A stretch of 64,000 nucleotides of DNA. Origin: Bordetella pseudohinzii. GTDB lineage: Bacteria; Pseudomonadota; Gammaproteobacteria; Burkholderiales; Burkholderiaceae_B. Positions 19,288 through 36,647 of this stretch are shown here, in pieces (positions within the stretch are counted from its first letter, which is position 1; every line of letters starts with the position of its first letter). The stretch is taken from assembly GCF_000657795.2 (NCBI RefSeq), contig NZ_JHEP02000008.1, positions 62,001 to 126,000 of the forward strand, read 5' to 3'. The notes under the pieces were generated by a model, which saw only the letters and a program-made list of their open reading frames with translations, searched no databases and had not been told where the DNA came from. A program made the position numbers and the translations under genes.

Positions 19288-20706
19288 TCAGCGGCCGTAG
19301 GCGTCATCAAACCGGACGATATCGTCCTCGCCCAGATACGGGCCCGACTGTACTTCGATGAGTTCCAGGTCTATCGAACCCGGATTCTCCAGGCGATGCT
19401 TGACGCCCAGTGGGATATAGGCGGATTGGTTTTCCGAGAGCAGGAAGACTTCGTCGCCGCGCGTGACGCGGGCCGTGCCGGTCACGACAATCCAGTGTTC
19501 GGCGCGGTGATGGTGCATCTGCAGCGACAGGCGGGCGCCCGGGGCCACGCGGATGCGCTTGACCTGGAAGCGCTCGCCGCCGTCGATGGCGTCATAGCTG
19601 CCCCAGGGGCGGTAGACCAGGCGATGGGCCGAGGCCTCGGCGCGCTTGCCGGCGTTGAGGCGGGCCACGATGCGCCGCACGTCCTGGACCTTGTCGCGGG
19701 CGGCCACCAGCACGGCGTCGGCGGTTTCGACGACCACCACGTCCTCCAGGCCCAGCAGCGCGAGCAGGCGATGGCTGGAATAGGCGTAGACATTGCGGCA
19801 GTCTTCGGCGATGACGTCGCCGCGCAGGGCATTGCCCTGGCGGTCCTGCGGCGCCAGCTGCCATAGCGAGGCGAAGGAGCCGATATCGCTCCAGCCGGCG
19901 TCCAGCGGCACCATGGCCACGCCCGGGTCGCGCTCCATGACGGCATAGTCGATGGAATCGGCGGGGCAGGCGGCGAAGGCGGCCTCGTCCAGGCGGATGA
20001 AATCGCCGTCATGGCGCAGTCTGGCCATGGCCTGGCGGCAGGCTGCCAGGATGTCGGGGCGGTGCGTCTGCAGCGCCTGCAGGTAGCGCGAGGCGCGGAA
20101 CAGGAACATGCCGCTATTCCAGAAATAGCGGCCGCTGGCCAGGTATTGCTCTGCCGTGGCGGCGTCGGGCTTTTCGACGAAGGCCTCGACATCGGCCACG
20201 CCCTGCCGGACCGCGCCGGCGCGGATATAGCCGTAGCCGGTCTCGGCGTAGGTGGGCTGGATGCCGAAAGTGACCAGGCGGCCATCCAGGGCGGCGGGCA
20301 GCGCCTGGCGCACGGCCTCCTGAAAACGCCCGGCGTCGGTCACGGCGTGGTCGGAGGGCAGCACCAGCAGGACGGGGTCGTCGCCCTCGGCCTGCGCCAG
20401 CAGGGCGGCCAGGGCGATGGCGGGGGCGGTATTGCGCCCGGCCGGCTCAAGCAGGATGGCCGGCTCGTGTTGGCCGATCTGGCGCAGCTGTTCGGCGACG
20501 ATGAAGCGGTGCTCTTCATTGGCGACGAAGATCGGCGCCTGGGCGTCCAGCCCCTTGACGCGCTCGCAGGTCGCTTGCAAGGGGGAAAGATCGCCCAGCA
20601 GGGGAAGAAACTGTTTGGGATAGCTGCCGCGCGAAAGCGGCCATAGACGGGTGCCCGTGCCACCCACGAGCAATACGGGGCGCAGCTTCGGCGTGGTACT
20701 CGGCAT
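19288..20706 (-). CDS. manC: Mannose-1-phosphate guanylyltransferase / mannose-6-phosphate isomerase
   Basis: This 472-residue bifunctional enzyme supplies GDP-mannose. The N-terminal nucleotidyltransferase carries GGTGTRLWPLSRGSYPKQFL and the FVEKP block. The C-terminal half carries the phosphomannose isomerase-type cupin (RPWGSYDAIDGGERFQVKRI onward, with LSLQMHHHRAEHW). Length and order match ManC/AlgA/XanB enzymes. The start is supported by an AAGGGA ribosome site. A TTGCAC inverted repeat lies about 65 bases upstream. It implies that mannose, or fucose or rhamnose made from GDP-mannose, is in the polymer. A separate phosphomannomutase is not in the window. Confidence 0.92.
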   Translation of the reverse strand: MPSTTPKLRPVLLVGGTGTRLWPLSRGSYPKQFLPLLGDLSPLQATCERVKGLDAQAPIFVANEEHRFIVAEQLRQIGQHEPAILLEPAGRNTAPAIALAALLAQAEGDDPVLLVLPSDHAVTDAGRFQEAVRQALPAALDGRLVTFGIQPTYAETGYGYIRAGAVRQGVADVEAFVEKPDAATAEQYLASGRYFWNSGMFLFRASRYLQALQTHRPDILAACRQAMARLRHDGDFIRLDEAAFAACPADSIDYAVMERDPGVAMVPLDAGWSDIGSFASLWQLAPQDRQGNALRGDVIAEDCRNVYAYSSHRLLALLGLEDVVVVETADAVLVAARDKVQDVRRIVARLNAGKRAEASAHRLVYRPWGSYDAIDGGERFQVKRIRVAPGARLSLQMHHHRAEHWIVVTGTARVTRGDEVFLLSENQSAYIPLGVKHRLENPGSIDLELIEVQSGPYLGEDDIVRFDDAYGR

Positions 20707-21333: not shown

Positions 21334-21789
21334 GTGCAAAGCGCCATCTTCTCCCATCTCGACGAACGACTCTGCGCCAGCCAATGGCGCGATGTGCTGT
21401 CCGCATTCGCGCAGGAACTGGTCCAGGACCTGACGGCGCAGCGCCTGCGCGCGCTGATGCGGCGCGCGGGCGAACAGTTCGCCGGCAGGCAGGCGCTGGC
21501 TCCGGCCGCGTCGGTCGCCGATATGCAGTCGGCCATCAACCAGGTCTGGCGTCCGCTGGATTGGGGCTGGGTGGAAATTTCAGAGGCCGAGGACCATCTG
21601 GCGCTGGCCCATTGCTGCGCGCCGCTGCGCGCGGCCTTCGGCGACAGCCATCTGGCCTGGAGCAGCGGATTTCTCGAGGGCGTCTATGAGTCATGGATGC
21701 GCCGCCTGGGCGCCGATGCGCAGTTGCGCATCACCGAGCAACAGGCGCCCGATGCGTTGGGGACGATTGTCTATCGATTGGGCCGTTGA
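21334..21789 (+). CDS. bcsD: Cellulose synthase subunit D
   Basis: This 151-residue protein matches BcsD in length and sequence character. It has an N-terminal helical region (LCASQWRDVLSAFAQEL), the central RPLDWGWVEISEAEDHLALAHCCAPL and a C-terminal FLEGVYESWMRRLGA segment. In acetic acid bacteria BcsD forms a periplasmic or cytosolic octameric ring that aligns glucan chains into crystalline ribbons. Translation starts at GTG 21334 after an AAGGA site. It is the first gene of the operon, 54 bases before bcsP. It places this operon with type I bcs systems. Confidence 0.85.
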   Translation: MQSAIFSHLDERLCASQWRDVLSAFAQELVQDLTAQRLRALMRRAGEQFAGRQALAPAASVADMQSAINQVWRPLDWGWVEISEAEDHLALAHCCAPLRAAFGDSHLAWSSGFLEGVYESWMRRLGADAQLRITEQQAPDALGTIVYRLGR

Positions 21790-21843: not shown

Positions 21844-22467
21844 ATGCGCGACATCAGCGACATAAGCAGCCTGTACCGGGAGTTCGGGGGAGACCCGCGC
21901 AACTACCGTGAGATCGGCCAGGAAGGCCGGGCGGCGGCGGCCCGCGGGCGCTGGCCGCTGCTGGGCCGGATACGGCCCGGGGTGGCGGCCGTGCCGCCGG
22001 CCGTGGGCGGACCGGCGGATCGCCCGGCGCGCGTGGCGCAGTGGCCACCGGCCGCGGTCGCCACGCTGGTCTTGCCGCCGGCGGCCGGCTATCCGCCTGT
22101 CCGCGCCGGCGCGGCCATCGATGGCGAGCGGGCGCTGGCCCTGGTCAGGAGCGCGCGCGTGCAGCGTATCGCGCTCGATGCGCTCGTCCTGCCCGCCGCC
22201 GCGCCCGAAGCCGAATGGTTGCCGCCCATCGTGGCCGCGCCTGCCGGCCTGGCGGGCAACGCCGCCGCGGCGCCGCGCGTCGAGCCCGGCCTGGCCCCGG
22301 CCGAGCCGCTCGTGGACGCGCCGCCGCTCGCGCGGACCGAGCCGCCCGCGGCCTTGCCGCCCGTCATGCCCGCGCCCGACGCCCGCTCCGCGACGCCGCT
22401 GCAAAGCGTTTTCGCGCGCCTGGCCAAGGCGCCGGTCCCGCCCACATCCAACACGGCAAAAGAATGA
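21844..22467 (+). CDS. bcsP: Cellulose biosynthesis protein BcsP (BcsR-like N-terminus, Ala/Pro-rich tail)
   Basis: This 207-residue protein starts MRDISDISSLYREFGGD. It has a BcsR-like motif at residues 18-41 (YREIGQEGRAAAARGRWPLL), then about 165 residues of low-complexity Ala/Pro/Arg sequence. That is the layout described for BcsP in betaproteobacterial operons. BcsR partners BcsQ to control BcsA, so a similar role is expected. The ATG at 21844 has a GGAGTCAGGG ribosome site and is preferred over 21814. The stop overlaps bcsQ by ATGA. Low-complexity sequence makes the tail's function unreadable. Confidence 0.75.
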   Translation: MRDISDISSLYREFGGDPRNYREIGQEGRAAAARGRWPLLGRIRPGVAAVPPAVGGPADRPARVAQWPPAAVATLVLPPAAGYPPVRAGAAIDGERALALVRSARVQRIALDALVLPAAAPEAEWLPPIVAAPAGLAGNAAAAPRVEPGLAPAEPLVDAPPLARTEPPAALPPVMPAPDARSATPLQSVFARLAKAPVPPTSNTAKE

Positions 22468-23243
22468 AAACCATAGCCATCGTCTCCGCCAAGGGCGGGG
22501 TAGGAAAGACCAGCATCGCGGCCGCCCTGGGGCTGGCGCTCAGCCGCGCGGGACATCCCGCGCTGGTGCTGGACCTTGACCCGCAGAATGCGCTGCGCTT
22601 TCACCTGGGCGCCGACGCCGAGGCGGCCGAGTCCGGACTGGCGCGCGCCAGCCTGGCCGGCATGCGCTGGCGCGACGCGGCCGTGCAGGGCGAGGCCGGC
22701 CTGCATCTGCTGCCCTTCGGGCAACTGAAGGAAAGCGACCGCCTGGCCCTGGAGCAGCAGATGCTGCGGGACCCCGACTGGCTGGCGCGCCATCTGCGCG
22801 AGCTGGACCTGGCGCCGGGCACGCTGGCGCTGATCGACACGCCGCCGGGGCCTACGGTCTATGCGAGCCAGACCTTGCGCTGCGCCGACCTGGCGCTGGT
22901 CGTGACGCTGTCCGATGCGGCTTCCTATGCCACCTTGCCCCAGGCCGAGAGCCTGATCGCCCAGTATGCGCAAGGGCGCGAGGGCTATCTGGGCCATGCC
23001 TTCATCGTCAACCAGGTCGACAGCGCGTCGGCGCTGGCCAAGGACACCCTGCGCGTCATGCGCGGCGTCCTGGGCGAGCGGCTGGGCGGCGTGGTCCACC
23101 GCGACGCCGCGGTCAGCGAGGCGCTGGCCTTCGGCAAGACCGTGATCGACCACGCGCCGCACAGCCAGGCGTGCAGCGATATCCTGGCCAGCGCGCAATG
23201 GCTGCGGCGGCAACTGAGCGATGCCAAGAGGGAGCATCCATGA
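22464..23243 (+). CDS. bcsQ: ParA/MinD-like ATPase of cellulose biosynthesis
   Basis: This 259-residue SIMIBI ATPase has the deviant Walker A AKGGVGKTS at residues 9-17, Walker A' LVLDLDPQN and the switch motif LIDTPPGP. BcsQ is needed for cellulose secretion and, with BcsR-like proteins, helps locate and activate the synthase. The gene is joined by ATGA overlaps to bcsP before it and bcsA after it. Family membership is clear; the name follows from the operon. Confidence 0.88.
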   Translation: MKTIAIVSAKGGVGKTSIAAALGLALSRAGHPALVLDLDPQNALRFHLGADAEAAESGLARASLAGMRWRDAAVQGEAGLHLLPFGQLKESDRLALEQQMLRDPDWLARHLRELDLAPGTLALIDTPPGPTVYASQTLRCADLALVVTLSDAASYATLPQAESLIAQYAQGREGYLGHAFIVNQVDSASALAKDTLRVMRGVLGERLGGVVHRDAAVSEALAFGKTVIDHAPHSQACSDILASAQWLRRQLSDAKREHP

Positions 23244-25432
23244 AATCGTCGAGCCGAGAGACCGCGGCGCGCCATCCGCGTCTTGCGCGCCTGGGCAATG
23301 ATCTGCTGTCCTGGCGCATCTGGAAGATGGCTTGGGCGCGCGCCCTGTCGCTGGCGCTGGCCGGCGCGCTGTCGGTGCTGGCGGTCGCCGTGGAGATGGG
23401 GCTGTTCCAGCAGATGGTGTTCGCGGCCGTCTGCGTGGCCGTGACCCTGCTGCTGCATCGCGTGGGCGGCCGGCTGGCCACGCTGACCATGGTGATGCTC
23501 TCGGTCATCACCTCGCTGCGCTATATGTATTGGCGCATCACCGACACCATCGGTTTCGACAACGTGCTGGACGCTTTTTTCGGCTACGGGCTGCTGCTGG
23601 CGGAAGTCTACGCGCTGACGGTCATGCTGTTGAGCTATTTCCAGTCGGCCTGGCCCCTGCGGCGCAAGCCCGCGCCCCTGCCGGCCGACCGCGGCAGCTG
23701 GCCGACGGTGGATGTCTATGTGCCGACTTATAACGAGCCGCTGGAGGTGGTTCGCCAGTCGGTGCTGGCCGCGCAATCGCTGGATTGGCCGGCCGACAAG
23801 CTGCGCGTCTATGTGCTGGATGACGGTCGGCGGGCGGAGTTCCGCGACTTTTGCGAGCAGGCGGGCGTGGGCTATCTGACCCGCCCGGACAACCGGCATG
23901 CCAAGGCCGGCAATATCAATGCCGCCCTGGCGCGGACACAGGGCGAATTCGTGGCCGTGTTCGATTGCGATCACGTGCCGGTGCGCTCCTTCCTGCAGAT
24001 TTGCATGGGATGGTTCGTCAAGGACAAGCGGCTGGCGCTCTTGCAGACGCCGCACGTCTTTTTCTCGCCCGATCCTTTCGAGCGCAATCTGGGCACCTTC
24101 CGCAACGTGCCCAATGAGGGCGAGCTGTTCTATGGCGTGGTGCAGGATGGCAACGACCTGTGGAACGCGACTTTTTTCTGCGGTTCCTGCGCGGTGATAC
24201 GGCGCAGCGCGCTGGACGCGGTGGGAGGCGTGGCGACCGAGAGCGTGACCGAGGACGCCCTGACCGCGCTGAAGATGAACCGCCAGGGCTTCAACACCGC
24301 CTATCTGGCGGTCCCGCAGGCCGCCGGCCTGGCGACGGAAAACCTGTCGCGCCACATCGGCCAGCGCACGCGCTGGGCGCGGGGCATGGCGCAGATCATC
24401 CGCATCAACAACCCGCTGCTGGGCAAGGGCCTGAAGCTGGGGCAGCGGCTGTGCTATCTGAGCGCGATGCTGCACTTCTTCTTCGGTCTGCCGCGCGTGG
24501 TCTTCCTGACCGCCCCGCTGGCCTATCTGTTCTTCCATGCCAATGTATTCCAGGCGTCGGCCATCATGGTGGCGGCCTATGCCTTGCCGCACATCATCCT
24601 GTCCAGCCTGACCGGCTCGCGCATCCAGGGGCGTTTCCGCCATTCGTTCTGGAACGAGGTCTACGAATCCGTGCTGGCCTGGTACATCATGCGCCCGGCG
24701 CTGCTGACGCTGATCAGCCCCAGGACCGCGCAGTTCAATGTGACCGCCAAGGGCGGCATCATCAGCGAGGCTTATTTCGACTGGACGCTGGCGCGCCCCT
24801 ATGTGGTGCTGCTGGCGCTGAACCTGATCGGTTTCATTGTCGGCGCGGTCAGCCTGGCCGCCGGCTATGGGGGCGTGGACGCGCGCCTGACCATTGTCCT
24901 GAACCTGGCGTGGACGATCTACAACATCATCATGACCAGCGCCAGCGTGGCCGTGGCCGGCGAGGTCAGGCAGCTGCGCAGCACGCCGCGCGTGGCGATT
25001 TCGCTGCCGGCCATGCTGCTGCTGCCCGACGGGCGCACCGTGGCCTGCCGGACCAGCGATTATTCGCGGGGCGGCCTGGGGCTGGTGTTGCCGGCCGGCG
25101 TGGTGGTGCCCAATGGCATGCCGCTGAGTGTTTCCCTGTTCCTCAACGATGAAGAGGCCATGTTCCCGGCGCTGGTGACTTTCAGCCGGGGCGACCGGCT
25201 GGGCCTGAGTTTCCAGTCGCTGACGCTGGAGCAGGAGCGCGCGCTGGCGGAGATGACCTTCGGCCGCGCCGATACCTGGACCGCCCACTGGGGCAATAAC
25301 ACGCCGGACTCTCCGCTGGCCGCCCTGGGCCAGATCAGCACGATAGGGGTGCGGGGCTTCAGCTTGCTGCTGCGCCAGTTGCGCGACCGCAGCCTCGCGG
25401 CCGCGCGCCGGCCCATGCCTACAAAAAACTAG
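23240..25432 (+). CDS. bcsA: Cellulose synthase catalytic subunit with PilZ domain
   Basis: This 730-residue membrane synthase polymerises UDP-glucose to beta-1,4-glucan and threads it through its own channel. The GT2 core shows Asp194/195 (LDDGRR), DxD (FDCDH, 242-244), TED (Asp339) and QRTRW (375-379). Flanking membrane helices number about eight. The C-terminal PilZ domain retains both cyclic di-GMP motifs, RSTPR (580-584) and DYSRGG (607-612). So the enzyme should be directly switched on by cyclic di-GMP. It overlaps bcsQ by ATGA and is followed after 14 bases by the first bcsB. Confidence 0.95.
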   Translation: MKSSSRETAARHPRLARLGNDLLSWRIWKMAWARALSLALAGALSVLAVAVEMGLFQQMVFAAVCVAVTLLLHRVGGRLATLTMVMLSVITSLRYMYWRITDTIGFDNVLDAFFGYGLLLAEVYALTVMLLSYFQSAWPLRRKPAPLPADRGSWPTVDVYVPTYNEPLEVVRQSVLAAQSLDWPADKLRVYVLDDGRRAEFRDFCEQAGVGYLTRPDNRHAKAGNINAALARTQGEFVAVFDCDHVPVRSFLQICMGWFVKDKRLALLQTPHVFFSPDPFERNLGTFRNVPNEGELFYGVVQDGNDLWNATFFCGSCAVIRRSALDAVGGVATESVTEDALTALKMNRQGFNTAYLAVPQAAGLATENLSRHIGQRTRWARGMAQIIRINNPLLGKGLKLGQRLCYLSAMLHFFFGLPRVVFLTAPLAYLFFHANVFQASAIMVAAYALPHIILSSLTGSRIQGRFRHSFWNEVYESVLAWYIMRPALLTLISPRTAQFNVTAKGGIISEAYFDWTLARPYVVLLALNLIGFIVGAVSLAAGYGGVDARLTIVLNLAWTIYNIIMTSASVAVAGEVRQLRSTPRVAISLPAMLLLPDGRTVACRTSDYSRGGLGLVLPAGVVVPNGMPLSVSLFLNDEEAMFPALVTFSRGDRLGLSFQSLTLEQERALAEMTFGRADTWTAHWGNNTPDSPLAALGQISTIGVRGFSLLLRQLRDRSLAAARRPMPTKN

Positions 25433-25446: not shown

Positions 25447-27744
25447 ATGACTTCCAGGCTTGATGCTTGGCCGCCCAGGCCTTGCCCGTCCCCCGGCTTG
25501 CCCGCCCCGCGGCGGGCCATGATGTTGGTCTTGCTGGCCCTGGCGCTGCCGGCCGCGGCCCAGCAGGAGGCCGCCGCGCCGCCCGCCGCCCAGACCCTGC
25601 CGCCCGGCGCTCAGGTGTATTCCCTGCCGCTGTCGCGCTTGAGCGGGCAGAGCGCGCTGCCGCTGCGCGGCGTGGACGGCATCAACGGGCTGGGCTTCTC
25701 GGCCCGCCGCGACCAGCGCATCATCGGCGCGCGCCTCAATCTCGATTACAGCTACTCGCCGTCGCTGCTGCCCGACCTGTCGCACTTGAAAGTGCTGCTC
25801 AATGGCGAGGTCGCCGGCAGCGTGGCGCTGCCCAAGGAAGCAGCCGCCACGCCCACGCGCAAGGCGGTCGAACTGCCCCTGCCGGCGCTGGCCGACTACA
25901 ACCGCCTGGACGTGCAGCTGATCGGCCATTACACGCTGGGCTGCGAGGATCCGGTGCACTCCAGTCTGTGGGCCGATGTCGCGGGCAGGAGCACCTTGGA
26001 CCTGACCGTCGTGCCGGTGGCGCTGCCCAATGACCTGGCGCTGCTGCCCGCGCCCTTCTTCGATAGCCGCGATATCCGTCCGCTGGCGCTGCCCGTCGTG
26101 CTGGGCCGCCAGCCCGATGCGGCGCGGCTGGAGAGCGCGGGCATCCTGACCTCGTGGTTCGGCGCCCTGGCCGGCTATCGCGGTGCGCGGTTCAGCGCCC
26201 GCCTCCAGGACCTGCCGGCTTCGGGCAATGCGGTGGTGCTGCTGCAGCCGGGCGATACCGTGGCCGGCGTGCAGGCGCCGGCCATCGATGGCCCCGCGGT
26301 GGCCATGATCACGCATCCCCAGGATCCTCACGGCAAGCTGCTGCTGGTCATGGGGCGCGACGCCAAGGAGCTGAAGCAGGCGGCCACCGCCGTGGCCCTG
26401 GGCAGCGAAACGCTGTCCGGCTCGCGGGCGCGCTTTACGCGCCTGACGCCGCCCCAGCCGCGCAAGCCTTTCGATGCGCCCAACTGGCTGCGCAGCGACC
26501 GTCCGGTGGCTTTCGGCGAACTGGTCGCCACGCGCGAGCTGAATGTGTCGGGCCACCGCCCGCCGCCCGTGCAGATCCCGCTGCGCCTGCCGCCGGGCCT
26601 GTTCGGCTGGCACAGCGACGGTGTGCCGGTCAACTTGATCTACCGCTATTCGCCGCGTCCTGGCGCCAAGCAGTCGGTCATGGAGATGACAGCCGGCGAC
26701 CAGCTGCTGCGCAGCTTTTCGCTGCATGAAGGCACGGGCGTTTTCAGCCGCCTCAATGGCATGCCGGCCTCGGAAGGGCAGGCCAGGGTGAGGGTGCCGA
26801 CCTATCTGCTGCCGCCGCTGAGCGCGCTGCAGTTCCGCTATGTGTACGAGTACGCCAAGCTGGGCGAATGCCAGAACAGCATCCTGGACAATGTGCGCAG
26901 CGCCATCGACCCGGGCTCGACCATCGATGTGTCGGGCCTGCCCAAGTACGCGCCCATGCCTGACCTGTCCTTGTTCGCCGACGCGGGCTTCCCCTTCACC
27001 CGCATGGCCGATCTTTCCGAGACGGCCGTGCTGATGCCGGAGGGCGCCGGCGCGGCCGTCTATGCCGCCTATCTGACGCTGCTGGGCGTGATGGGACAGG
27101 CCTCGGGCTATCCGGCCATCGGCGTGACCGTGGGCCAGGCCGCGCAGGCCGAAGCCCTGCGGGACAAGGACCTGCTGGTGCTGGCGTCGGGCGACAACCA
27201 GCCGCTGCTCAAACAATGGCAGGGCATGCTGCCCAGCGGTTTCGAGGGCAGGGAGCGGCGCTTCAGCCTGTCGGACTGGATAGACCAGCTGGCCGCGTGG
27301 CTGGGCCCGGATCCGCGCGACCGCAAGCGCCGCGCCGATCTCCAGCTCGATTACGCCGGCGGCGGCGTGCTGGCCACGCTGGCCGGCATGGAGTCGCCGC
27401 TGCGTTCGGGCCGCAGCGTGGTCGTGGTCTCGGGCGCCAGCGCCGAGGGCCTGGCCGCGGCCGTGCAGGCCCTGCAGGCCAATCGCGATAACGAAGGCCG
27501 GGCCGAGGATCCGCGCGACCGTATCGGCGGCAGCCTGACGGTGATCAACGAAAAGCAGGCCTACACCTTGCAGGACGAGCAAAGCTATTACGTGGGTTCG
27601 CTGCCCGCCTGGCTGGGCCTGCAATGGTTCTTCGCGCGCCATCCGCTCACGCTGGTGGGCGCCTTGCTGCTCAGCGCGCTCGTCATCGCCGTGTTGCTCT
27701 ACCTGTCGCTGCGCGCCCGCGCGCAACGCCGCCTGGGATCGTGA
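25447..27744 (+). CDS. bcsB: Cellulose synthase regulatory subunit BcsB, first copy
   Basis: This 765-residue periplasmic BcsB guides the nascent glucan from BcsA. A signal-like hydrophobic segment (MMLVLLALALPAAAQQ) follows 24 extra N-terminal residues; an alternative start at 25519 would give a normal signal. Conserved blocks include LPLRGVDGINGLGFS, HYTLGCEDPVHSSLWA (carbohydrate-binding domain) and FRYVYEYAKLGECQNSILDN. A C-terminal membrane anchor (ALLLSALVIAVLLYLSL) completes the protein. It is complete and intact, as is the second copy that follows after 2 bases. The two are homologous end to end. Confidence 0.9.
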   Translation: MTSRLDAWPPRPCPSPGLPAPRRAMMLVLLALALPAAAQQEAAAPPAAQTLPPGAQVYSLPLSRLSGQSALPLRGVDGINGLGFSARRDQRIIGARLNLDYSYSPSLLPDLSHLKVLLNGEVAGSVALPKEAAATPTRKAVELPLPALADYNRLDVQLIGHYTLGCEDPVHSSLWADVAGRSTLDLTVVPVALPNDLALLPAPFFDSRDIRPLALPVVLGRQPDAARLESAGILTSWFGALAGYRGARFSARLQDLPASGNAVVLLQPGDTVAGVQAPAIDGPAVAMITHPQDPHGKLLLVMGRDAKELKQAATAVALGSETLSGSRARFTRLTPPQPRKPFDAPNWLRSDRPVAFGELVATRELNVSGHRPPPVQIPLRLPPGLFGWHSDGVPVNLIYRYSPRPGAKQSVMEMTAGDQLLRSFSLHEGTGVFSRLNGMPASEGQARVRVPTYLLPPLSALQFRYVYEYAKLGECQNSILDNVRSAIDPGSTIDVSGLPKYAPMPDLSLFADAGFPFTRMADLSETAVLMPEGAGAAVYAAYLTLLGVMGQASGYPAIGVTVGQAAQAEALRDKDLLVLASGDNQPLLKQWQGMLPSGFEGRERRFSLSDWIDQLAAWLGPDPRDRKRRADLQLDYAGGGVLATLAGMESPLRSGRSVVVVSGASAEGLAAAVQALQANRDNEGRAEDPRDRIGGSLTVINEKQAYTLQDEQSYYVGSLPAWLGLQWFFARHPLTLVGALLLSALVIAVLLYLSLRARAQRRLGS

Positions 27745-27746
27745 TC

Positions 27747-30041
27747 ATGAAAAACAACCGCCTTTCGACCCAAATGCCGCAAGTCCGCTGGTCGGCGCGC
27801 GCGCTGTCGCGGCTGCCCATGCTGCTGCTGGCCAGTTGCTCGCTGCTGGCCCAGGCGGCCGAGACGCCGGCCCCGGCTCCCGAGCCGGCGTCTTTCAAGG
27901 CCGATCAGCGCTACACCTTCAAGCAGCTCGGCGCACAGTATCCGCTCAACCTGCGCGGCGTGGACGGCAGCAATACGCTGAACTTCAGCGTGCGCAACGA
28001 CCGGGTCGTGACCGGCGCGCGGGTGGACCTGCGCTATGCCTATTCGCCCGCGCTGCTGGCCGAGCTGTCGCACATCAATGTGCTGGTCAACGACGAGGTC
28101 GCCGCCACCATTCCGGTGCCGCGCGAAACGGCCGGCGGCAATCTGCGCCAGACCGTCGAGATCCCGCCGTATCTGATCACTGCCTATAACGACCTGCGCC
28201 TGCAGCTGATCGGCCACTACACGCTGGACTGCGAAGATCCGCTGCATTCCAGTCTGTGGGCCAATATCAGCAATCTGAGCTCGCTGGACCTGGCGACCGC
28301 GGCCCTGCCGCTGCCCAATGACCTGGCCAACCTGCCGCTGCCCTTTTTTGACCGGCGCGATATGCGCAAGCTGGTTCTGCCTTTTGTGTTCCAGGCCGAA
28401 CCCGACGCGGCCGTGCTGGAAGCCGCCGGCGCCCTGTCGTCGTGGTTCGGCGCGCTGGCCGGTTATCGCGGCGCCGAGTTTCCCGCCGCCGTCACGCAAC
28501 TGCCCGGGCGCGGCAACGCGGTGGTGTTCGCCATGGGCAGCGCCGTCCCCGGCCTGGGCCAGCCGCCGGTCAAGGGCCCCGCCCTGGCGGTTGTCGGCAA
28601 TCCCAACGACCCGGACGGCAAGCTGCTGCTGGTGATGGGCCGCGATGGCAAGGAGCTCAAGCAGGCCGCCGCCGCGCTGGCGCTGGGCAGCCAGACGCTG
28701 GCTGGCCCGTCGGCGGCCATCACCCGCCTGGCCGAGCTCAAGCCGCGCCAGCCCTACGACGCGCCGCGCTGGCTGCGCACCGACCGCCCGGTGCGTTTCG
28801 GCGACCTGATCGATCCCAAGCGCCTGAACGTCTCGGGCTTCAGCCCCGACGCCATTCGCATCGATGTGCGCGTGCCGCCCGATCTGTTCGGCTGGCAGGA
28901 AAAGAAAGTACCCATCGACCTGCGCTACCGCTATACCCCGCAGCCCACGTCGCTGAACTCCTCGCTGCTGTTCGGCGTGGGCGATGAGTTCGTCAAGTCC
29001 ATGCCCTTGTTCGCCCTGGAGCGCATCGAGGGCGGCGACAAGCTGCGCGCCGAGGTGCTGCCCGACGAGAGCCTGCCCATGCGCGCCCAGCTGGATGTGC
29101 CGCTGGAACTGCTGAAGGCGCGCGGGCAGCTGCAGTTCCGCTATCTGTACGACTACATCAAGCAGGGCGAGTGCCGCGACATCATCGTCGACAATGTGCG
29201 CGGCATGATCGAGCCCGAGTCGACCATCGACCTGAGCGGCTATCCGCATTTCATCCTGATGCCGGACCTGCGCGCCTTCGGCACCTCGGGTTTTCCTTTC
29301 ACGCGCCTGGCTGACCTGTCGGAGACGGCGGTGGTGCTGGATGAGCGCGCCGGCGCCGAAGTCTATTCGGCCTATCTGAATGTGCTGGGCCGCATGGGCG
29401 ACGCCACGGGGTATCCGGCCACGGGCGTGACCGTGATCCGTCCGCAGCAGCTCGACGCTCAGGCCGGCAAGGACCTGCTGGTGATCGCCGCCGGGGCCTC
29501 GCATCCCTTGCTCAAGCGCTGGGCCGCCAGCATCCCGGGCAGCTATGAGGCGGGCGCGCACTTCAGCCTGTCGGATCTGGTCTATCGCGTGACGGACTGG
29601 TTTCATGCCGACCCGCGCCTGGACCGGCGCGTCCCGCGCGCGGCCCTGAGTTATGCCGGCGAAGGCGTCAGCGCCATCGTGGCCGGCTTCGAGTCGCCGC
29701 TGGCCGCGCGCCGCAGCGTGGTGCTGCTGGCCAGCAGCCAGCCCGAGGGCCTGGCCGCGGCCGTGGCCGCGTTGCGCGGCGGCGAAGGCTATGACAAGGC
29801 CGTGCAGGGCAGCCTGTCGGTGATCCGGGGCAAGCAAGTCGATGCGCTGGCCGGCGACCAGACTTACACGCTGGGCAGCCTGCCGCTGCTCAAGCGCATC
29901 GATTGGTCGATCTCCTCGCTGCTGCCCGGCTACACCTTGCTGCGCCTGGCGGTGATGGGACTGGTCTGGCTGGCCGGCATCGCCGTGGCGCTGGCGCTGC
30001 TGCGCGTCCTGGTGCGCCGCCTGCGCAGGAAGACGCCGTGA
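27747..30041 (+). CDS. bcsB: Cellulose synthase regulatory subunit BcsB, second tandem copy
   Basis: This 764-residue BcsB paralogue starts MKNNRLSTQMPQ with a normal signal ending in LLAQAAE. It has the same domain order as the first copy: LNLRGVDGSNTLNFS, HYTLDCEDPLHSSLWA, FRYLYDYIKQGECRDIIVDN and a C-terminal membrane helix (LAVMGLVWLAGIAVALALL). Sequence divergence from the first copy is substantial but spread evenly, so this is an old duplication or separate recruitment. Both copies keep the residues expected of working subunits. It overlaps bcsZ as TGATG. Possible roles are a mixed BcsB ring or condition-specific partners for BcsA. Confidence 0.9.
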   Translation: MKNNRLSTQMPQVRWSARALSRLPMLLLASCSLLAQAAETPAPAPEPASFKADQRYTFKQLGAQYPLNLRGVDGSNTLNFSVRNDRVVTGARVDLRYAYSPALLAELSHINVLVNDEVAATIPVPRETAGGNLRQTVEIPPYLITAYNDLRLQLIGHYTLDCEDPLHSSLWANISNLSSLDLATAALPLPNDLANLPLPFFDRRDMRKLVLPFVFQAEPDAAVLEAAGALSSWFGALAGYRGAEFPAAVTQLPGRGNAVVFAMGSAVPGLGQPPVKGPALAVVGNPNDPDGKLLLVMGRDGKELKQAAAALALGSQTLAGPSAAITRLAELKPRQPYDAPRWLRTDRPVRFGDLIDPKRLNVSGFSPDAIRIDVRVPPDLFGWQEKKVPIDLRYRYTPQPTSLNSSLLFGVGDEFVKSMPLFALERIEGGDKLRAEVLPDESLPMRAQLDVPLELLKARGQLQFRYLYDYIKQGECRDIIVDNVRGMIEPESTIDLSGYPHFILMPDLRAFGTSGFPFTRLADLSETAVVLDERAGAEVYSAYLNVLGRMGDATGYPATGVTVIRPQQLDAQAGKDLLVIAAGASHPLLKRWAASIPGSYEAGAHFSLSDLVYRVTDWFHADPRLDRRVPRAALSYAGEGVSAIVAGFESPLAARRSVVLLASSQPEGLAAAVAALRGGEGYDKAVQGSLSVIRGKQVDALAGDQTYTLGSLPLLKRIDWSISSLLPGYTLLRLAVMGLVWLAGIAVALALLRVLVRRLRRKTP

Positions 30042-31252
30042 TGCCCAGACCCGCCCGCGCACGCGCTTCGGCCTGGCGCCCGCGCGCCCTGCTGGCGGCG
30101 CTTGCGCTCGGGCTGGCCGGCCGCGCGGCCGCCGCGCCCGTGTGCACGGCGGTCAGTTGGCCGGAATGGTCGGCCTTCGTGACGCATTTCGTGCAGGCCG
30201 ATGGGCGGGTCGTCGACGGCAGCACGCCGCGCCAGATGAGCACTTCGGAAGGACAGTCATATGCCATGTTCTTCGCCCTGGTGGCCAATGACCGCGAGAC
30301 CTTCGGGCGCCTGTGGCGCTGGAGCGTGGCCAACCTCGCCCGCGGCGATGCGGGCCGGCATTTGCCGGCCTGGTCCTGGGGCAGGCGCGATGACGGCGCC
30401 TGGGGCGTGCTGGATGCCAACTCGGCGTCCGATGCCGACCTATGGTTTGTCTATGCCTTGCTGGAGGCGGGGCGGCTGTGGCGCCAGCCCGCCTACACCC
30501 GCGATGCGCTGGCGCTGTTGGCCCAGGTCGAGGCCGGCGAGATCGCCGATCTGCCGGGGCTGGGCAGCATGCTGTTGCCCGCGCCCCAGGGCTTTGTCCA
30601 GCCCGGCTTGTGGCGGCTGAATCCAAGTTATCTGCCGCCGCCGGTGCTGCGGCGGCTGGCGCAGGCATCGGCGCAAGGGCCCTGGAACGCCGTCGCCGCC
30701 AATACGCTGCGGCTGATCCAGGCCACCGCGCCCAAGGGCTATGCGGCCGACTGGGTCGCCTACCGCGGCCGGCCGGCGCAGCCCGGATCCGCGGCGAGGG
30801 TGGGGCATTACGAGAACGATCCCGTGCAGGGCGCCAAAGGCAGCTACGACGCGATCCGCATCTATCTGTGGGCGGGCATTACGCCGCCTGACGATCCTGT
30901 CGCCCGGCCCTTGCTGGCGGCCCTGTCGGGCATGGCGACCTCGGTCGCGGCCGATGGCGCGCCGCCCGAGTCGGTCGATGTGGACAGCGGCCAGACGCGG
31001 GGCAGGGGGCCGTTCGGTTTTTCAGCGGCCTTGCTGCCCTACTTCGAGGCCCGGGGGCAGGACGACCTGCTGCAGGGGCAGTTGCGCCGCGTGCGGACGG
31101 CGTGGGCCGCCAGCCTGCAAGCCGCGGCCTCGCGGCAGCCGCCTTATTACGATTTTGTGCTCAGTCTGTTCGGCACCGGCTGGTTCGATCAGCGCTACCG
31201 GTTCGGCAAGACGGGCCGTGTGTCATTGGAGTGGGAGAAGAAATGTCCTTGA
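30041..31252 (+). CDS. bcsZ: Periplasmic endo-1,4-beta-glucanase, GH8
   Basis: This 403-residue GH8 cellulase has a signal peptide ending GLAGRAAAA. The catalytic acid lies in STSEGQSYAMFFALV (Glu70), and the Asp pair in NSASDADLWF (131 and 133) forms the substrate site. BcsZ trims glucan in the periplasm and is usual in bcs operons. The start at 30041 is the TGATG overlap with the second bcsB; the longer frame from 29903 is within that gene. It overlaps bcsC by 10 bases. Confidence 0.92.
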   Translation: MPRPARARASAWRPRALLAALALGLAGRAAAAPVCTAVSWPEWSAFVTHFVQADGRVVDGSTPRQMSTSEGQSYAMFFALVANDRETFGRLWRWSVANLARGDAGRHLPAWSWGRRDDGAWGVLDANSASDADLWFVYALLEAGRLWRQPAYTRDALALLAQVEAGEIADLPGLGSMLLPAPQGFVQPGLWRLNPSYLPPPVLRRLAQASAQGPWNAVAANTLRLIQATAPKGYAADWVAYRGRPAQPGSAARVGHYENDPVQGAKGSYDAIRIYLWAGITPPDDPVARPLLAALSGMATSVAADGAPPESVDVDSGQTRGRGPFGFSAALLPYFEARGQDDLLQGQLRRVRTAWAASLQAAASRQPPYYDFVLSLFGTGWFDQRYRFGKTGRVSLEWEKKCP

Positions 31253-34200
31253 ACCGCCATACGCTGGCCATCGGCGTGCTGGCCGCTCTGGCGCACCAGA
31301 GCGGCTGGGCCCAGCCGGCCGCCACCGCCTCGCTGCTGGAGCAGGGCCGTTATTGGCAGAACCAGGGCGATGCCAGGCGCGCCGCCCAGGCATGGGAAAA
31401 ACTCCTGCTGTCCGAACCGGCGCAGCAGGAGGCGCTGTATGGACTGGGGCTGTCGGCTGTGCGCGAGAAGCGCTTGAGCGATGCCCAGGGCTATCTGAAC
31501 CGGCTTCGGCAGCTCGACGCCGCCGGCTCCTTCACCCAACGTCTGCAGCAGGACATCGCGCTGGCCGGCGGCCCGGGCGCGGCCGACCTGGAGCGCGCGC
31601 GCATGCTGGCGGCCTCGGGCGAGATCGGCCAGGCCATGCAGGCCTATGACCGGGCCTTGCAGGGCCGCGAGCCGCAGGGCGATATCGCCCTGGAGTACTA
31701 CAGTTTCCTGGGCTATACGGACAAGGGGGTGGCGCCGGCCATCGGCGGCCTGCAGCGGCTGTCGCGCGAGATGCCGGGCAATCCCTATGTGCAGCTGGCC
31801 CTGGGCAAGCATCTGATCCGTGACGAGCGCCGCCGCGCCGAGGGCGTGCGCCTGCTGGGCCAGCTGGCGCAGCGCAAGGATGTCGGCGCCGACGCCACCG
31901 AGAGCTGGCGCGCCGGCCTGATATGGCTGGGCGCGCCCAGTGCCGCGGAAAAACCGCTGTTCGAGGCCTATCTGAAGGGCCATCCGGATGACAAGGAAGT
32001 GCGCGCCGTCTATGACAACCCGGCGGCCAGGCGCGGCGCGCCGGCCGTGGCCTGGCGCCAGGATCCCCGGCTGGCGCGCGGTTTCGCGGCCCTGAAGAAC
32101 CAGGACCTGCCCGCCGCCGAGGCGGCCTTCCAGGAAAAACTGCGCGCCGCGCCCAATGATCCCGACGCCCTGGGCGGCCTGGGCCTGGTGCGCATGCAGC
32201 AGGATCGCGGCGCCGAAGCCCAGGAGCTGTTGTCGCGCGCCGCGGCGCGGCCCGGCGCCGGACGCAATTGGAGCCGCGCCCTGGCCGGGGCGCGCTATTG
32301 GAACTTGCTGGACCAGGCCGAGGCCGCGCGCCAGCGCGGCGACAGCGACGGCGCGCGCCGCCTGCTGGAGCAGGCCATCCGCCTGGATGGCGGCGCGGCC
32401 GGCGCCTACAACGCCATGGGCCGTCTCTATGCGGGCGCGGGCGACATGGCCAATGCGGAGAAGACCTATCGCGCCGTGCTGGCCCGCCACAAGAATGACC
32501 CCGAGGCCGTGCGCGGGCTGGCCGATGTGCTGGCCCGGACCCATCGCGCCGACGAAGCCCGGCGCCTGGTCGCCGCGCTGCCGCCCGGCCAGGCGGGCGA
32601 TATCGGCCGGCTGCGGGCCTCCATCGCCGCCGGGCAGGCCCGCGAGGCCGACAAGCGCGGCGACACGGCCGGCGCCCGCCGCCTGCTGGAAGATGCGCGC
32701 GCCGCCGATTCGCGCAATCCCTGGGCCACGTATGAGCTGGCGCGGCTGATGCTGCGCCATGGCGAGGCGGCGCGCGGTCAACAGCTGATGGACGAGACTC
32801 TGCGCCTGCAGCCGGACGCCGCCGACGCACTCTACGCCAGCGCGCTGCTGGCTTCCGAGAGCGGCGATTGGGGCCGCGCCCATGACACGCTGGCGCGCAT
32901 TCCGGAGAGCCGGCGCACGCCCGACATGCAGGCATTCCAGCGCAATGTCTGGGTGCGCGAACAGGCGGCGCAGGCGGCGCGCCTGGCCCAGGCGGGCGAT
33001 ACGGCCCAGGCGCGCCAGCGCCTGGAGGGACTGGAGACCGCGGCCGCGGGCGATCCTCAGCTGCTGGGCGCCATCGCCCAGGCCTATGTGGACGCCGGCG
33101 ACACGCCGCGCGCGCTGGCCCTGATGCGGCCGCTGGCCGCGGGATCGCTTCCGGCCGGCCCCGATGTGCTCATTCCCTATGCCGGCGTGCTGCTCAAGAG
33201 CGGCGATGACCCGGGCACGGCCGCCGTGCTGCGCCAGGTGCAGAAGCTGCCCATGGATGCCGACCAATACCGCGGCTTCCAGGACCTGGTGAGTCTGTAT
33301 ACGGTGCGCCAGGCCGAGGCCATGCGCCAGCGCGGCGATCTGGTGGCCGCCTACGACATCCTGCAGCCGGTGCTCAAGCGCCGGCCCGACGACGCCTCGG
33401 CGCAGGGCGCGCTGGCGCGCATGTATGTCGCCGCCGGCGACCGCGACAAGGCGTTGGAGATCTATCGCGGCCTGCAGGCGCGCGATCCCGACAATGCCCA
33501 GCTGCAGATCGCGGTGGCCGGCATCGCCGCCGAAGCCGATGACTGGCGTTCGGCCGAGACGGCCATCGACCGCGCCTTGACGCTGGCGCCGCGCGATCCG
33601 GACGTGCTGGCCGGCGCGGCCCGTCTGTACCGCTCGCGAGGCAAGACGGCGCGCGCCGCCGATCTCTATCGCCAGGCCATCGCGGCGCAGGAGGCGCGCG
33701 GCGCCGCGCTGGCGCTGGCCGACAGCGGCGGCGCTCATGCCGACGGCAATCCCTTCGTGGGCCTGCCGGGCCAGCGGGCCCGGGCCACCGGCCAGTCCCA
33801 GGTGCTGGGCCAGGCGCTGGACGAGTCTTTGCCCGCGGCCTACCGTTCGGACGCCGATGCCGAGCCGGCTTCCGCGCGCGAAGAACCCTATGCCATCGCC
33901 GCCTCCGCGCCGCGGGATACGCGGGCGCTGGCGCCTTCCGCGGCGCCGCCGGGCGGCGCGGCGGCCGCCTATGCGGGCGGCATCGCCACGCGCACCGGGC
34001 CGGGCGCCGACAACCTGCCGCCGGCCGGCCATGCGGCCAAGGCCGATCCCGCGCCGCGCTCGCTCAGGCAGGAGCTTGACGAGGTCATGCAGGCGCGCAG
34101 CGCGGAAATCCGCGCCGGCGCTTTCGTGCGCTCCAACAATGGCGAATCCGGCATGAGCAAGCTGACCGAGGTCGATGCACCCGTCGAGGCGCTGATCCCG

Positions 34201-35256
34201 GCCGGCGACGGCAAGCTCTCGCTGCGCGCCACGCCGGTCAGCTTGACCGCCGGCAGCCTGGACAGCAGCTATTCGAGCAGCAGCCGCTTTGGCGGCGGGC
34301 CGGTGGCCGCCGCCGCCCAGGCGCAGGGCCGCGTGGGTTCGGCCGGCAGCCAGCGGGATCGCGGCGTGGGGCTGTCGGCCGGCTATGTGATGGACGGTCT
34401 GTCGGCCGACATCGGCGCCACGCCGCTGGGTTTCGAGTATTCCAATGTGGTGGGCGGCGTGCGGATCAACGGGCCCATCAGCCGCGCCGCCGGCACCTGG
34501 TACAGCCTGGACCTGTCGCGCCGCGCCGTGACCGATAGCCTGCTTTCCTTTGCCGGCACCCGCGACAATCGCAGCGGCCAGCGCTGGGGCGCGGTCACGG
34601 CCACCGGCCTGGAAGGCCAGATCGGTATGGACAACACGGATTATGGCGTCTATGCCTATGGCTCCTGGCGCGGCCTGGATGGCCACAATGTCGAGTCCAA
34701 CTCGCGCACCGAAGTGGGCACGGGCATTTACTGGCATCTGATGCGCGAGTCCAACCGCATGCTGACGGCCGGCCTGAACCTGGGCGCCATCTTCTACGAC
34801 AACAACCAGCGCTTTTTCACCTATGGCCACGGCGGCTACTTCAGCCCGCAGCAGTTCTACGCCCTGAGCGTGCCGGTCACCTGGGCGCAGCGCGATGGCC
34901 GCTTCACGTACAAGCTGCAAGGCGCGGTGGGTATCCGCCACTTCAAGGAAGACAGCGCGGATTACTTCCCGACCAACGGCGGCCTGCAGGCGGCGGCCAA
35001 TGCCGTCAACCAGGGCTTGTTCGGCACCCCGGCCGTCTACGACGGACAGTCGCGCACGGGCGTGGGCTACAACCTCGCGGCGGCGGCCGAATACCAGCTC
35101 ACGCCCAAACTGTTCCTGGGCGGCACGCTGGCCATGGACAACGCTTCCGACTATCGCCAGTACGCCGGCGGCCTGTATCTGCGCTATGCCTTCTATCCGC
35201 AGACACGCCCGCTGGAGCTGCCGGTCAATCCCTATCAGTCGCCCTATGCCCGCTAG
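31243..35256 (+). CDS. bcsC: Cellulose exporter: TPR scaffold and outer-membrane barrel
   Basis: This 1337-residue protein has a signal peptide ending HQSGWAQ. About 900 residues of TPR-type helical repeats follow, rich in LxxAxxxxP motifs, then a low-complexity linker (about 890-960). The C-terminal beta-barrel of about 330 residues begins near FEYSNVVGGVRINGP and ends LYLRYAF. BcsC carries the glucan across the periplasm and outer membrane. The start has a strong GGAG ribosome site and overlaps bcsZ by 10 bases. The length is somewhat above typical (about 1150-1300) because of the linker. Confidence 0.92.
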   Translation: MSLNRHTLAIGVLAALAHQSGWAQPAATASLLEQGRYWQNQGDARRAAQAWEKLLLSEPAQQEALYGLGLSAVREKRLSDAQGYLNRLRQLDAAGSFTQRLQQDIALAGGPGAADLERARMLAASGEIGQAMQAYDRALQGREPQGDIALEYYSFLGYTDKGVAPAIGGLQRLSREMPGNPYVQLALGKHLIRDERRRAEGVRLLGQLAQRKDVGADATESWRAGLIWLGAPSAAEKPLFEAYLKGHPDDKEVRAVYDNPAARRGAPAVAWRQDPRLARGFAALKNQDLPAAEAAFQEKLRAAPNDPDALGGLGLVRMQQDRGAEAQELLSRAAARPGAGRNWSRALAGARYWNLLDQAEAARQRGDSDGARRLLEQAIRLDGGAAGAYNAMGRLYAGAGDMANAEKTYRAVLARHKNDPEAVRGLADVLARTHRADEARRLVAALPPGQAGDIGRLRASIAAGQAREADKRGDTAGARRLLEDARAADSRNPWATYELARLMLRHGEAARGQQLMDETLRLQPDAADALYASALLASESGDWGRAHDTLARIPESRRTPDMQAFQRNVWVREQAAQAARLAQAGDTAQARQRLEGLETAAAGDPQLLGAIAQAYVDAGDTPRALALMRPLAAGSLPAGPDVLIPYAGVLLKSGDDPGTAAVLRQVQKLPMDADQYRGFQDLVSLYTVRQAEAMRQRGDLVAAYDILQPVLKRRPDDASAQGALARMYVAAGDRDKALEIYRGLQARDPDNAQLQIAVAGIAAEADDWRSAETAIDRALTLAPRDPDVLAGAARLYRSRGKTARAADLYRQAIAAQEARGAALALADSGGAHADGNPFVGLPGQRARATGQSQVLGQALDESLPAAYRSDADAEPASAREEPYAIAASAPRDTRALAPSAAPPGGAAAAYAGGIATRTGPGADNLPPAGHAAKADPAPRSLRQELDEVMQARSAEIRAGAFVRSNNGESGMSKLTEVDAPVEALIPAGDGKLSLRATPVSLTAGSLDSSYSSSSRFGGGPVAAAAQAQGRVGSAGSQRDRGVGLSAGYVMDGLSADIGATPLGFEYSNVVGGVRINGPISRAAGTWYSLDLSRRAVTDSLLSFAGTRDNRSGQRWGAVTATGLEGQIGMDNTDYGVYAYGSWRGLDGHNVESNSRTEVGTGIYWHLMRESNRMLTAGLNLGAIFYDNNQRFFTYGHGGYFSPQQFYALSVPVTWAQRDGRFTYKLQGAVGIRHFKEDSADYFPTNGGLQAAANAVNQGLFGTPAVYDGQSRTGVGYNLAAAAEYQLTPKLFLGGTLAMDNASDYRQYAGGLYLRYAFYPQTRPLELPVNPYQSPYAR

Positions 35257-35280: not shown

Positions 35281-35943
35281 ATGCTGACTTCCGTTTTTGC
35301 CGGTTTGAGCATCCTGCTCATCGGCGACAGCCATCTGGCCGCGCCCGGCTATCTGATCACGACCCTGCAGGACGATCTGGTCCAGCAGGGCGCCGTCGTG
35401 CGCAGCATCGGCGTGTGCGGCAGCAATGCCGGCGACTGGCTCAAGGCCACGCCCAGCACCTGCGGCGGCGCCGAGCGCCTGAACAGCGGCAAGATCGAAT
35501 TGAAAGGCAAGGCGGCCCGCACCACGCCGGTCACCGAGCTGATCGCGGCCACCAAACCCAACCTGGTGCTGATCGTGCTGGGCGACACCATGGCCGGCTA
35601 CACCAACCCCGCCTTTCCCAAGACCTGGGCCTGGCAGCAGACGACGGCGTTGACCCAGGCCATCGCCGGCAGCGGCGCGGCCTGCGCCTGGATCGGTCCG
35701 GGCTGGGGCACCGAAGGCGGCAAGTACAACAAGAATTTTGCGCGGGTCAAGCAGGTGTCGGCCTTTCTGGGCAGCAATGTCGCGCCCTGCGCGTATATCG
35801 ATTCGACGCAGTTCTCCACGCCGGGCCAATGGCCGACCACGGACGGCCAGCACTACACCAACACGGGCTACAAGGCCTGGGGCGATGCCATCGCCAAGCA
35901 GCTGGCCAGCCTGCCCCAGGTCAAGGCGCTGCGGAAACAATGA
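35281..35943 (+). CDS. wssF: WssF-like SGNH-fold protein of cellulose acetylation
   Basis: This 220-residue protein has an SGNH layout: IGDSHL (Ser, about residue 17), VCGSNAG (oxyanion Gly/Asn), VLGDTMAG and a C-terminal TTDGQHYTNTGY with the Asp/His pair. Position and size match WssF of the Pseudomonas wss operon, which precedes the AlgF/I/J-like genes and is proposed to handle acyl groups. The strong AAGGAG site fixes the start, and there the first strand is already the catalytic one, so no signal peptide is visible. Several Cys are present. Cellular location is therefore unclear. Homology to WssF is by position and fold, not alignment. Confidence 0.7.
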   Translation: MLTSVFAGLSILLIGDSHLAAPGYLITTLQDDLVQQGAVVRSIGVCGSNAGDWLKATPSTCGGAERLNSGKIELKGKAARTTPVTELIAATKPNLVLIVLGDTMAGYTNPAFPKTWAWQQTTALTQAIAGSGAACAWIGPGWGTEGGKYNKNFARVKQVSAFLGSNVAPCAYIDSTQFSTPGQWPTTDGQHYTNTGYKAWGDAIAKQLASLPQVKALRKQ

Positions 35944-35978
35944 CGCGCGGCCAACGCGCAGCACGGAAAGGACCAGGA

Positions 35979-36647
35979 ATGACTGCTTTTCTTTGGCGTG
36001 GCCTGGCCGGTCTGTCGATCGCCCTGTCTGCCACGGGCGCCGGCGCGGCGCAGATCCAACTCTATGAAACCGGGCCGGCGGAGGATGCTTCCTTCGTGCG
36101 CTTCGTCAATGGCGGCGGCGAGCCGATGGACGTCGGCGCCAAGGGCTCGCAGGCGCGCATCAAGCTGGATGCCGCCCATCCGGCTTCGGACTTCATGCCC
36201 GTGAAGGCGGGCGCCAAGATGCAGGGCATGCTGCAGGGCGCGGGCAAGACGCGCGAGGTCGAGGTGACGGTGCGGCCGGGCGAGTTCGCCTCGGTGGTCG
36301 GCCTGCCGGACAAGGAGGGGCTGCGCGCCGTCATCGTGCGCGAGCAGCCCGAGGACTTCAATGCGCTCAAGGTATCCGTCGGCTTCTACAACCTGGACCC
36401 GGCTTGCGGGCAGGCCAGCCTGTTGGCCGTGCCGCGCAATCTGGCCTTGTTCGAGAACGTCGCCGAGGGCGGCGTGGCGCGCCGCCTGGTCAACCCGGTG
36501 GCGCTGCGCGTGCAGGCCCGTTGCGGCGGGCAGGCAGTGGGCCCGGAGCTGGACCTGGGGGCGCTGCAGGCGGGGCAGCGCCATACCGTCCTGCTGCTGC
36601 CTTCGGGGCCGCGCCTGTTGCACGCGGTAGACCAGACCGCGCGCTAG
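35979..36647 (+). CDS. wssG: AlgF-like cellulose acetylation protein (WssG)
   Basis: This 222-residue protein has a signal peptide (SIALSATGAGAAQ). A mature part of two small beta-rich halves follows: IQLYETGPAEDASFVRFVNG, then LKVSVGFYNLDPACGQ. It resembles the alginate acetylation protein AlgF. Together with the MBOAT and AlgJ/X-like proteins it should pass acetyl groups to the polymer in the periplasm. The ATG at 35979 has an AAGGACCAGGA site. It is separated from the MBOAT gene by 67 bases. Confidence 0.75.
   Translation: MTAFLWRGLAGLSIALSATGAGAAQIQLYETGPAEDASFVRFVNGGGEPMDVGAKGSQARIKLDAAHPASDFMPVKAGAKMQGMLQGAGKTREVEVTVRPGEFASVVGLPDKEGLRAVIVREQPEDFNALKVSVGFYNLDPACGQASLLAVPRNLALFENVAEGGVARRLVNPVALRVQARCGGQAVGPELDLGALQAGQRHTVLLLPSGPRLLHAVDQTAR

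Follow-up and report, generated by a model that had tools for sequence, protein, structure and literature searches.

Two diverged BcsB proteins encoded in tandem in the cellulose operon of Bordetella pseudohinzii and its relatives, with a proposed division of labour

The window, a 64-kb stretch of Bordetella pseudohinzii DNA, carries on its + strand a cellulose operon whose order, read from open reading frames and profile matches, is bcsD-P-Q-A-B1-B2-Z-C-SGNH-algF-algI-algJ. Its genes, and the C-terminal features of the two bcsB copies (B1 and B2 below), are the following.

21334 to 21789, + strand: bcsD, GTG start (Pfam PF03500 Cellsynth_D, 75.5 bits)
21844 to 22467, + strand: bcsP (NCBIfam BcsP_of_Ic, 80.3 bits, cut-off 55; Pfam CBP_BcsR)
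22464 to 23243, + strand: bcsQ (Pfam CBP_BcsQ, 149.4 bits)
23240 to 25432, + strand: bcsA, cellulose synthase with a PilZ domain (Pfam GT2 and PilZ)
25447 to 27744, + strand: bcsB1, 765 aa, first-copy clade, proposed BcsA-docking BcsB (Pfam BcsB, 708.6 bits)
27580 to 27741, + strand: B1 tail anchor of the canonical type, interface helix plus transmembrane helix, ...HPLTLV...LLYLSLRARAQRRLGS
27747 to 30041, + strand: bcsB2 from its likely start, 764 aa, second-copy clade, proposed crown/BcsC-side BcsB (Pfam BcsB, 750.7 bits)
29859 to 30038, + strand: B2 C-terminal hydrophobic helix, a non-canonical anchor
30041 to 31252, + strand: bcsZ, GH8 cellulase (Pfam Glyco_hydro_8, 209 bits)
31249 to 35256, + strand: bcsC, TPR plus outer-membrane barrel (Pfam BCSC_C, 386.5 bits)
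35281 to 35943, + strand: SGNH-like gene of the acetylation block, a label read from its own sequence; recurs 3' of bcsC across family relatives
35940 to 36647, + strand: algF-like gene (Pfam AlgF, E 2.4e-5, 24.3 bits, below the cut-off of 34.4)
36715 to 38124, + strand: algI/wssH-like MBOAT O-acyltransferase gene (Pfam MBOAT, 80.2 bits)
38129 to 39271, + strand: algJ/algX/wssI-like acetyltransferase gene (Pfam ALGX, 263.9 bits)

The presence of bcsD (PF03500) and of a bcsP that scores above the BcsP_of_Ic cut-off marks the operon as type I (BcsP 'of Ic'). The bcsP product has a BcsR-like N-terminus and a tail rich in proline and alanine. The operon is also wss-like, with AlgF/AlgI/AlgJ-like genes 3' of bcsC, the MBOAT and ALGX matches lying above their cut-offs and the AlgF match below; the SGNH-like gene matched no family in Pfam or NCBIfam. 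From the wss-like genes, the cellulose product of the operon may be acetylated. On the - strand, positions 17852 to 20706 hold what we take from the translations to be a sugar-phosphate transferase-like and a mannose-1-phosphate guanylyltransferase-like gene, transcribed away from the cellulose operon. This pair is perhaps another polysaccharide cluster.

A previous sequence-only reading had described the two bcsB genes as tandem, full-length and divergent, and the description holds. Both Pfam BcsB (PF03170) matches span nearly the entire profile, at scores to be read against a cut-off of 21 bits, both copies exceed the cut-offs of the NCBIfam BcsB models, and B1 and B2 are 47% identical. The solved E. 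coli BcsB is matched by B2 at 2.6e-120 and by B1 at 5.2e-115. AlphaFold models of the two proteins (pLDDT 78.9 for B1, 81.9 for B2) both find chains of 9fmt, the E. coli crown subunit, as their best PDB matches in Foldseek, with TM scores by target of 0.84-0.90. The open frame of the second copy runs from 27624 to 30041 and its called start is too early; the start is likely the ATG at 27747, just 3' of the bcsB1 stop, which gives a signal-peptide-like N-terminus and leaves the bcsB1 stop and bcsB2 start two bases apart. An LASC near the N-terminus of B2 would make it a lipoprotein, a reading that we rejected as the cysteine is not conserved. The whole genome holds exactly two BcsB matches and no third. 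Among the named relatives compared, the closest is Bordetella hinzii (92% identity for B2, 93% for B1).

Tandem bcsB is an old, family-wide trait. BcsB was found in nine of 15 genomes sampled from the genus, and all nine have the side-by-side pair. In a draw of 151 genomes from the family, 54 had a BcsB match, of which five weak ones (<28 bits) were set aside; among the remaining 49 a hand count gave 20 with a side-by-side pair. Two further family genomes (G006 and G104) have the pair split by bcsD-P-Q. The tandem also occurs in an environmental relative, Castellaniella defragrans DSM 12141 (L052). Outside the family, draws of 349, 369 and 398 genomes from the order, class and phylum were searched with a match to at least 500 of the 606 profile positions required, and a hand count found no side-by-side pair in 98 BcsB-bearing genomes (36 from the order, 14 from the class and 48 from the phylum), although contig ends may hide some. 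In G980 two partial BcsB matches adjoin on one contig, a doubtful case. In one of the 20 family genomes with the pair (G001, locus L063) bcsB2 lies in two open frames, which may be a sequencing error or a broken gene. The tandem in Bordetella avium has already been reported, and was termed unique in the excerpted text (PMC7112194). A literature search, largely without subscription papers, found no other report of the tandem and no functional study of both copies; PMC9012009, which came up as a 'two bcsB' paper, proved to be a chance wording only.

When both copies are placed in trees with BcsB from relatives, as the sequence-only reading had suggested, the two positions separate by lineage. 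A tree of 125 BcsB groups 24/24 first copies in one clade (support 96) and 24/24 second copies in another (99), the latter also taking in third copies of two genomes (G024 and G059). A 57-row mixture-model tree supports the first-copy clade at 78 and the second-copy clade at 99, and a 30-row tree without the anchor at 81/95 and 96/97. Four loci that were too distant (L055, L056, L057 and L129) and a 259-aa piece of the G001 B2 were excluded from the trees, and the 57-row and 30-row trees also exclude G001, G044 and some near-copies. Because position and BcsB lineage agree in all 24 loci, the pair must be old. In a BcsA tree the tandem operons form one clade of 21 (support 99), and the two separated-pair operons fall outside it. 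The BcsC of tandem operons is not monophyletic (three changes, at least two of them forced by well-supported branches), so the genes of the operon may differ in history. B2 groups with the BcsB of single-copy acetylation-type operons (97/99). As to the origin of the pair, simple duplication in place finds no support: with the anchor left out, a single B1+B2 clade is rejected (p-AU 0.0035), to be read with caution as the fast B1 and long branches may mislead. A merger of plain and acetylation operons was set aside since B1 sits within the acetylation-type part of the BcsB trees. The G006/G104 layout (A-B1 / D-P-Q / B2-Z-C) is nested in the B2 clade and so is probably derived, not ancestral. Both plain and acetylation operon types are present in one genus, in G073, G135 and G116.

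The domains of the two proteins were compared in 22 genomes with both copies intact, using domain limits that we set on E. coli numbering. The paired counts exclude L063, for its split B2, and L033, whose B1 is cut by a contig end; L032, L035, L051, L052 and L054 were left out as duplicates of genomes already included. Carbohydrate-binding blocks had been claimed for both copies. They are indeed present in both, but those of B1 diverge about twice as fast as those of B2. Between-species variability is 0.52 in B1 vs 0.35 in B2 for CBD1 and 0.53 vs 0.37 for CBD2, and in the anchor it is 0.52 vs 0.64. Column bootstrapping over 16 thinned genomes gave B1/B2 ratios of 1.49 (1.34-1.69) for CBD1, 1.47 (1.34-1.64) for CBD2, 1.11 (1.03-1.20) for FD1, 1.24 (1.16-1.34) for FD2 and 0.83 (0.72-0.95) for the anchor. 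In the same 16 genomes the anchor is the most tilted against B2 of 645 sequence windows of its size. The anchor ratio is 0.44 in Bordetella/Achromobacter and 0.91 in the other genera. With ML substitutions per site on the BcsA topology, the B1/B2 ratios are 1.86 (CBD1), 1.07 (FD1), 2.19 (CBD2), 1.60 (FD2) and 0.56 (anchor), and B1 is also the faster copy when its periplasmic domains are taken together. B1 exceeds B2 in variability by less in FD1 than in FD2, a difference that 109 of 10000 permutations reached.

Domain profiles trained on other BcsB give the same picture. The training set had 41 rows, namely 24 single-copy BcsB known to lie outside the family, E. coli, and 16 named single-copy loci, mostly Comamonadaceae, that may belong to the family in this collection. 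The anchor profile scores B1 above B2 in 22/22 pairs (medians 60.6 vs 28.6 bits), and B2 scores above B1 in 22/22 both for CBD1 (185.8 vs 142.9 bits) and for CBD2 (216.9 vs 180.2 bits). FD1 is level, with medians of 180.1 bits for B1 and 179.9 for B2 and B1 higher in seven of the 22 pairs; for FD2, B1 is higher in three. When the 24 rows and E. coli were the sole training, anchor, CBD1 and CBD2 again gave 22/22 each, with B1 higher in six pairs for FD1 and five for FD2. Of four held-out loci, three come from new genomes, as the contig of L143 is that of L034; all four agree in sign with the 22 pairs for anchor, CBD1 and CBD2. In one of them (L142) the anchor contrast is slight, at 43.0 vs 40.5 bits, and FD2 favours B1 in two of the four, contrary to the expectation of a freer B1 FD2. 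Single-copy BcsB within the family retain both anchor and CBDs, with medians of 64.6, 160.4 and 196.7 bits for anchor, CBD1 and CBD2. In this crossing pattern B1 keeps the anchor and B2 keeps the CBDs, which excludes simple decay of one copy.

A C-terminal anchor had likewise been attributed to both copies, and a hydrophobic helix does close both proteins; of the two, B1 alone keeps the conserved anchor sequence, which B2 has lost. The B1 tail resembles that of single-copy BcsB and E. coli, with an interface helix, HP, a transmembrane helix and a basic RRL end, while the B2 tail is a different and variable hydrophobic helix. An LRxxAxxRL motif is present in 24/24 B1, 1/23 B2 and 42/79 single-copy rows including E. 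coli; it is thus not universal, and the profile is the better test. A third, B2-type BcsB that has no transmembrane segment and ends just past the interface helix was seen in G024 (L076:15968-18256) and G059 (L078:3432-5657), in each case flanked by bcsC on one side and by a second BcsC-like TPR gene, of about 875-896 aa, on the other. In G059, the genome covered by the barrel search, this second TPR protein has no BCSC_C barrel match. From their sequences, the third BcsB and the TPR protein together suggest a B-C module confined to the periplasm and encoded immediately 5' of the acetylation genes.

In all 20 tandem operons B1 follows bcsA and B2 precedes bcsZ-bcsC. The A-B1 and B2-Z-C blocks stay intact even where bcsD-P-Q divides the pair: the order is Q-A-B1 / D-P-Q-B2-Z-C in L080 (G006) and L081 (G104), where bcsQ occurs twice and bcsA once within 20 kb. 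In L067 and L141 (G044) an additional bcsZ-bcsC pair lies between the tandem operon and the acetylation genes. Very long frames (1462-1522 aa) with matches to both BcsA and BcsB occur in other members of the order or class (L115, L118, L136 and L137), which suggests natural BcsA-BcsB fusions. Distance correlations, compared in 1000 subsamples of 14 genomes, lean towards a link of B1 with BcsA and of B2 with BcsC. The BcsA TM1-3 region correlates with the B1 anchor at 0.49 vs 0.31 for the B2 anchor (B1 higher in 894/1000 subsamples), a link that is not anchor-specific because the region follows the entire periplasmic part of B1 as well (0.56). BcsC TPR1 correlates with CBD1 of B2 at 0.49 vs 0.22 for that of B1 (B2 higher in 997/1000 subsamples). 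Of the residues through which E. coli TPR1 makes contact, Gln34 is retained as Gln in 20 of 21 sequences, Arg53 is replaced by Lys in all 21, and neither Gln30 nor Leu37 is conserved among them. This partial retention makes a BcsC contact plausible, though not one identical to that of E. coli. A specific loss of BcsC-binding residues in B1 goes in the expected direction and was rejected as not significant, with 362 of 5000 random sets reaching the same excess over the remainder of CBD1.

According to the excerpts of PMC11470070 and PMC11379886, six identical BcsB in E. coli form a half-ring on one BcsA, copy 1 inserts its C-terminal anchor in a groove of BcsA TM1-3, neighbouring subunits are joined FD1(n) to FD2(n+1), and the last BcsB binds BcsC TPR1 through CBD1 and the CBD1-FD1 link. 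The lower excess of B1 variability in FD1 is what position 1 predicts under this joining. We favour, with some confidence, the view that an old pair of BcsB paralogues shares the work of the single E. coli BcsB, with B1 at the synthase end and B2 in the crown and on the BcsC side. B1 would be the subunit whose anchor completes the BcsA channel and whose FD1 joins the next subunit, leaving its CBDs and FD2 freer. B2 would supply the remainder of the glucan-guiding crown, its CBDs kept and its anchor freed, and would probably contact BcsC. By analogy with E. coli we infer that both copies reside in one complex in these positions, at a ratio that might be, for example, 1:5. The points that we count for this division of labour are the domain profiles, the ML ratios, the smaller excess in FD1 than FD2, gene order, co-divergence, the anchor-less third copies, the held-out loci and the roles of the positions in E. 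coli. The mixed ring of the sequence-only reading persists here as a more specific proposal, in which labour is divided according to position, drawn from reciprocal domain conservation, with the ring itself modelled on E. coli. Since the crown of E. coli is encoded by a type II operon and the window operon bears bcsD and bcsP, a crown is assumed here. More tentatively, at a little under even chances, we picture a hetero-oligomeric crown of one dedicated starter B1 and several B2 whose anchors need not touch the synthase; in the genus of G024 and G059 an anchor-less BcsB and the barrel-less BcsC-like TPR protein (barrel tested in G059) would then make a purely periplasmic module before the acetylation genes.

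Other explanations of the pair deserve weight. B1 might work in an ordinary 1:1 BcsA-BcsB synthase and B2 in a periplasmic scaffold of its own, for example with BcsC or BcsD, that forms no ring with B1. The type I enzyme of Gluconacetobacter hansenii is 1:1 BcsAB as stated in the excerpt of PMC11470070, and the window operon, with its bcsD and bcsP, shares the type I genes; the third copy of G024/G059 without a membrane helix, which in G059 precedes the TPR gene without a barrel match, also fits separate assemblies. However, the face by which a subunit at position 1 is expected to join, FD1, is conserved to about the same degree in both copies, and it is the remaining periplasmic domains of B1 that drift; we regard two separate assemblies as unlikely. 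It is quite improbable that the copies are interchangeable and merely raise the supply of BcsB for a many-to-one crown while one of them decays. Six BcsB per BcsA in E. coli, the faster evolution of B1 across its whole periplasmic part and the split B2 of G001 could be explained in this way, but the divergence is reciprocal, the anchor evolving more slowly in B1 and the CBDs more rapidly, and the pair is retained in 20 sampled family genomes and in all nine BcsB-bearing genomes of the genus.

The least probable explanation, in our view, is the one offered in the sequence-only reading, that plain and acetylated glucan are guided differently by the two copies. Of the 20 tandem genomes, 18 have an AlgI homologue next to the operon, and the grouping of B2 with BcsB of single-copy acetylation-type operons points the same way. 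Against this, two genomes (G056 and G025) retain both copies, and a search of each entire genome (rated 100% and 99% complete) with the AlgI and AlgJ of the window gave no match at E<=0.001; the G025 contig ends shortly past bcsC, and nothing related to the acetylation genes was found in 16.5 kb 3' of the G056 operon. Conversely, 12 loci with adjoining acetylation genes carry a single bcsB, and a plain/acetylated split does not predict the loss of the BcsA anchor in one copy. On these gene contents the plain/acetylated reading is disfavoured, and acetylation does not appear to be the reason for two copies.

The closest published parallel is the wss operon of B. avium 197N (Bundalovic-Torma 2020, PMC7112194), likewise an acetylated-cellulose operon of Bordetella with tandem BcsB/WssC (wssC). 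In its excerpted text the two copies are not compared, whereas here the tandem is family-wide, with one clade per copy and reciprocal domain loss, and is not tied to acetylation. The Pseudomonas fluorescens wss operon likewise joins cellulose genes to algF/I/J/X-like genes; the excerpt of PMC10302187 describes no bcsB duplication in it, and the window operon additionally has bcsD and bcsP. Both copies share the fold of the E. coli BcsB of the hexameric crown over nearly their whole length (9fmt, 6yg8, 7l2z; excerpts of PMC11470070 and PMC11379886), but there one gene serves all positions, and here two diverged genes each keep part of the signature. In the BcsAB of Rhodobacter sphaeroides and G. 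hansenii (1:1 in the PMC11470070 excerpt) the BcsB anchor pairs with BcsA, and B1 looks like a partner of this kind; that excerpt mentions no further BcsB with a degenerate anchor for them.

The tandem itself has published precedent; the reciprocal divergence of the two copies appears to be new. The statement in PMC7112194 that the duplication is unique to B. avium stands corrected, and tandem bcsB is not bound to acetylated cellulose. The complementary specialisation of B1 and B2 is well supported by the sequence comparisons, and we infer their joint assembly. In E. coli one gene fills every crown position, so a mutation strikes all of them and the roles of the positions are genetically inseparable. 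In this family evolution seems to have separated the positions, and single deletions and anchor swaps could assign synthesis, guidance and handover to BcsC. The natural split between B1 and B2 could thereby show why one BcsA needs several BcsB.
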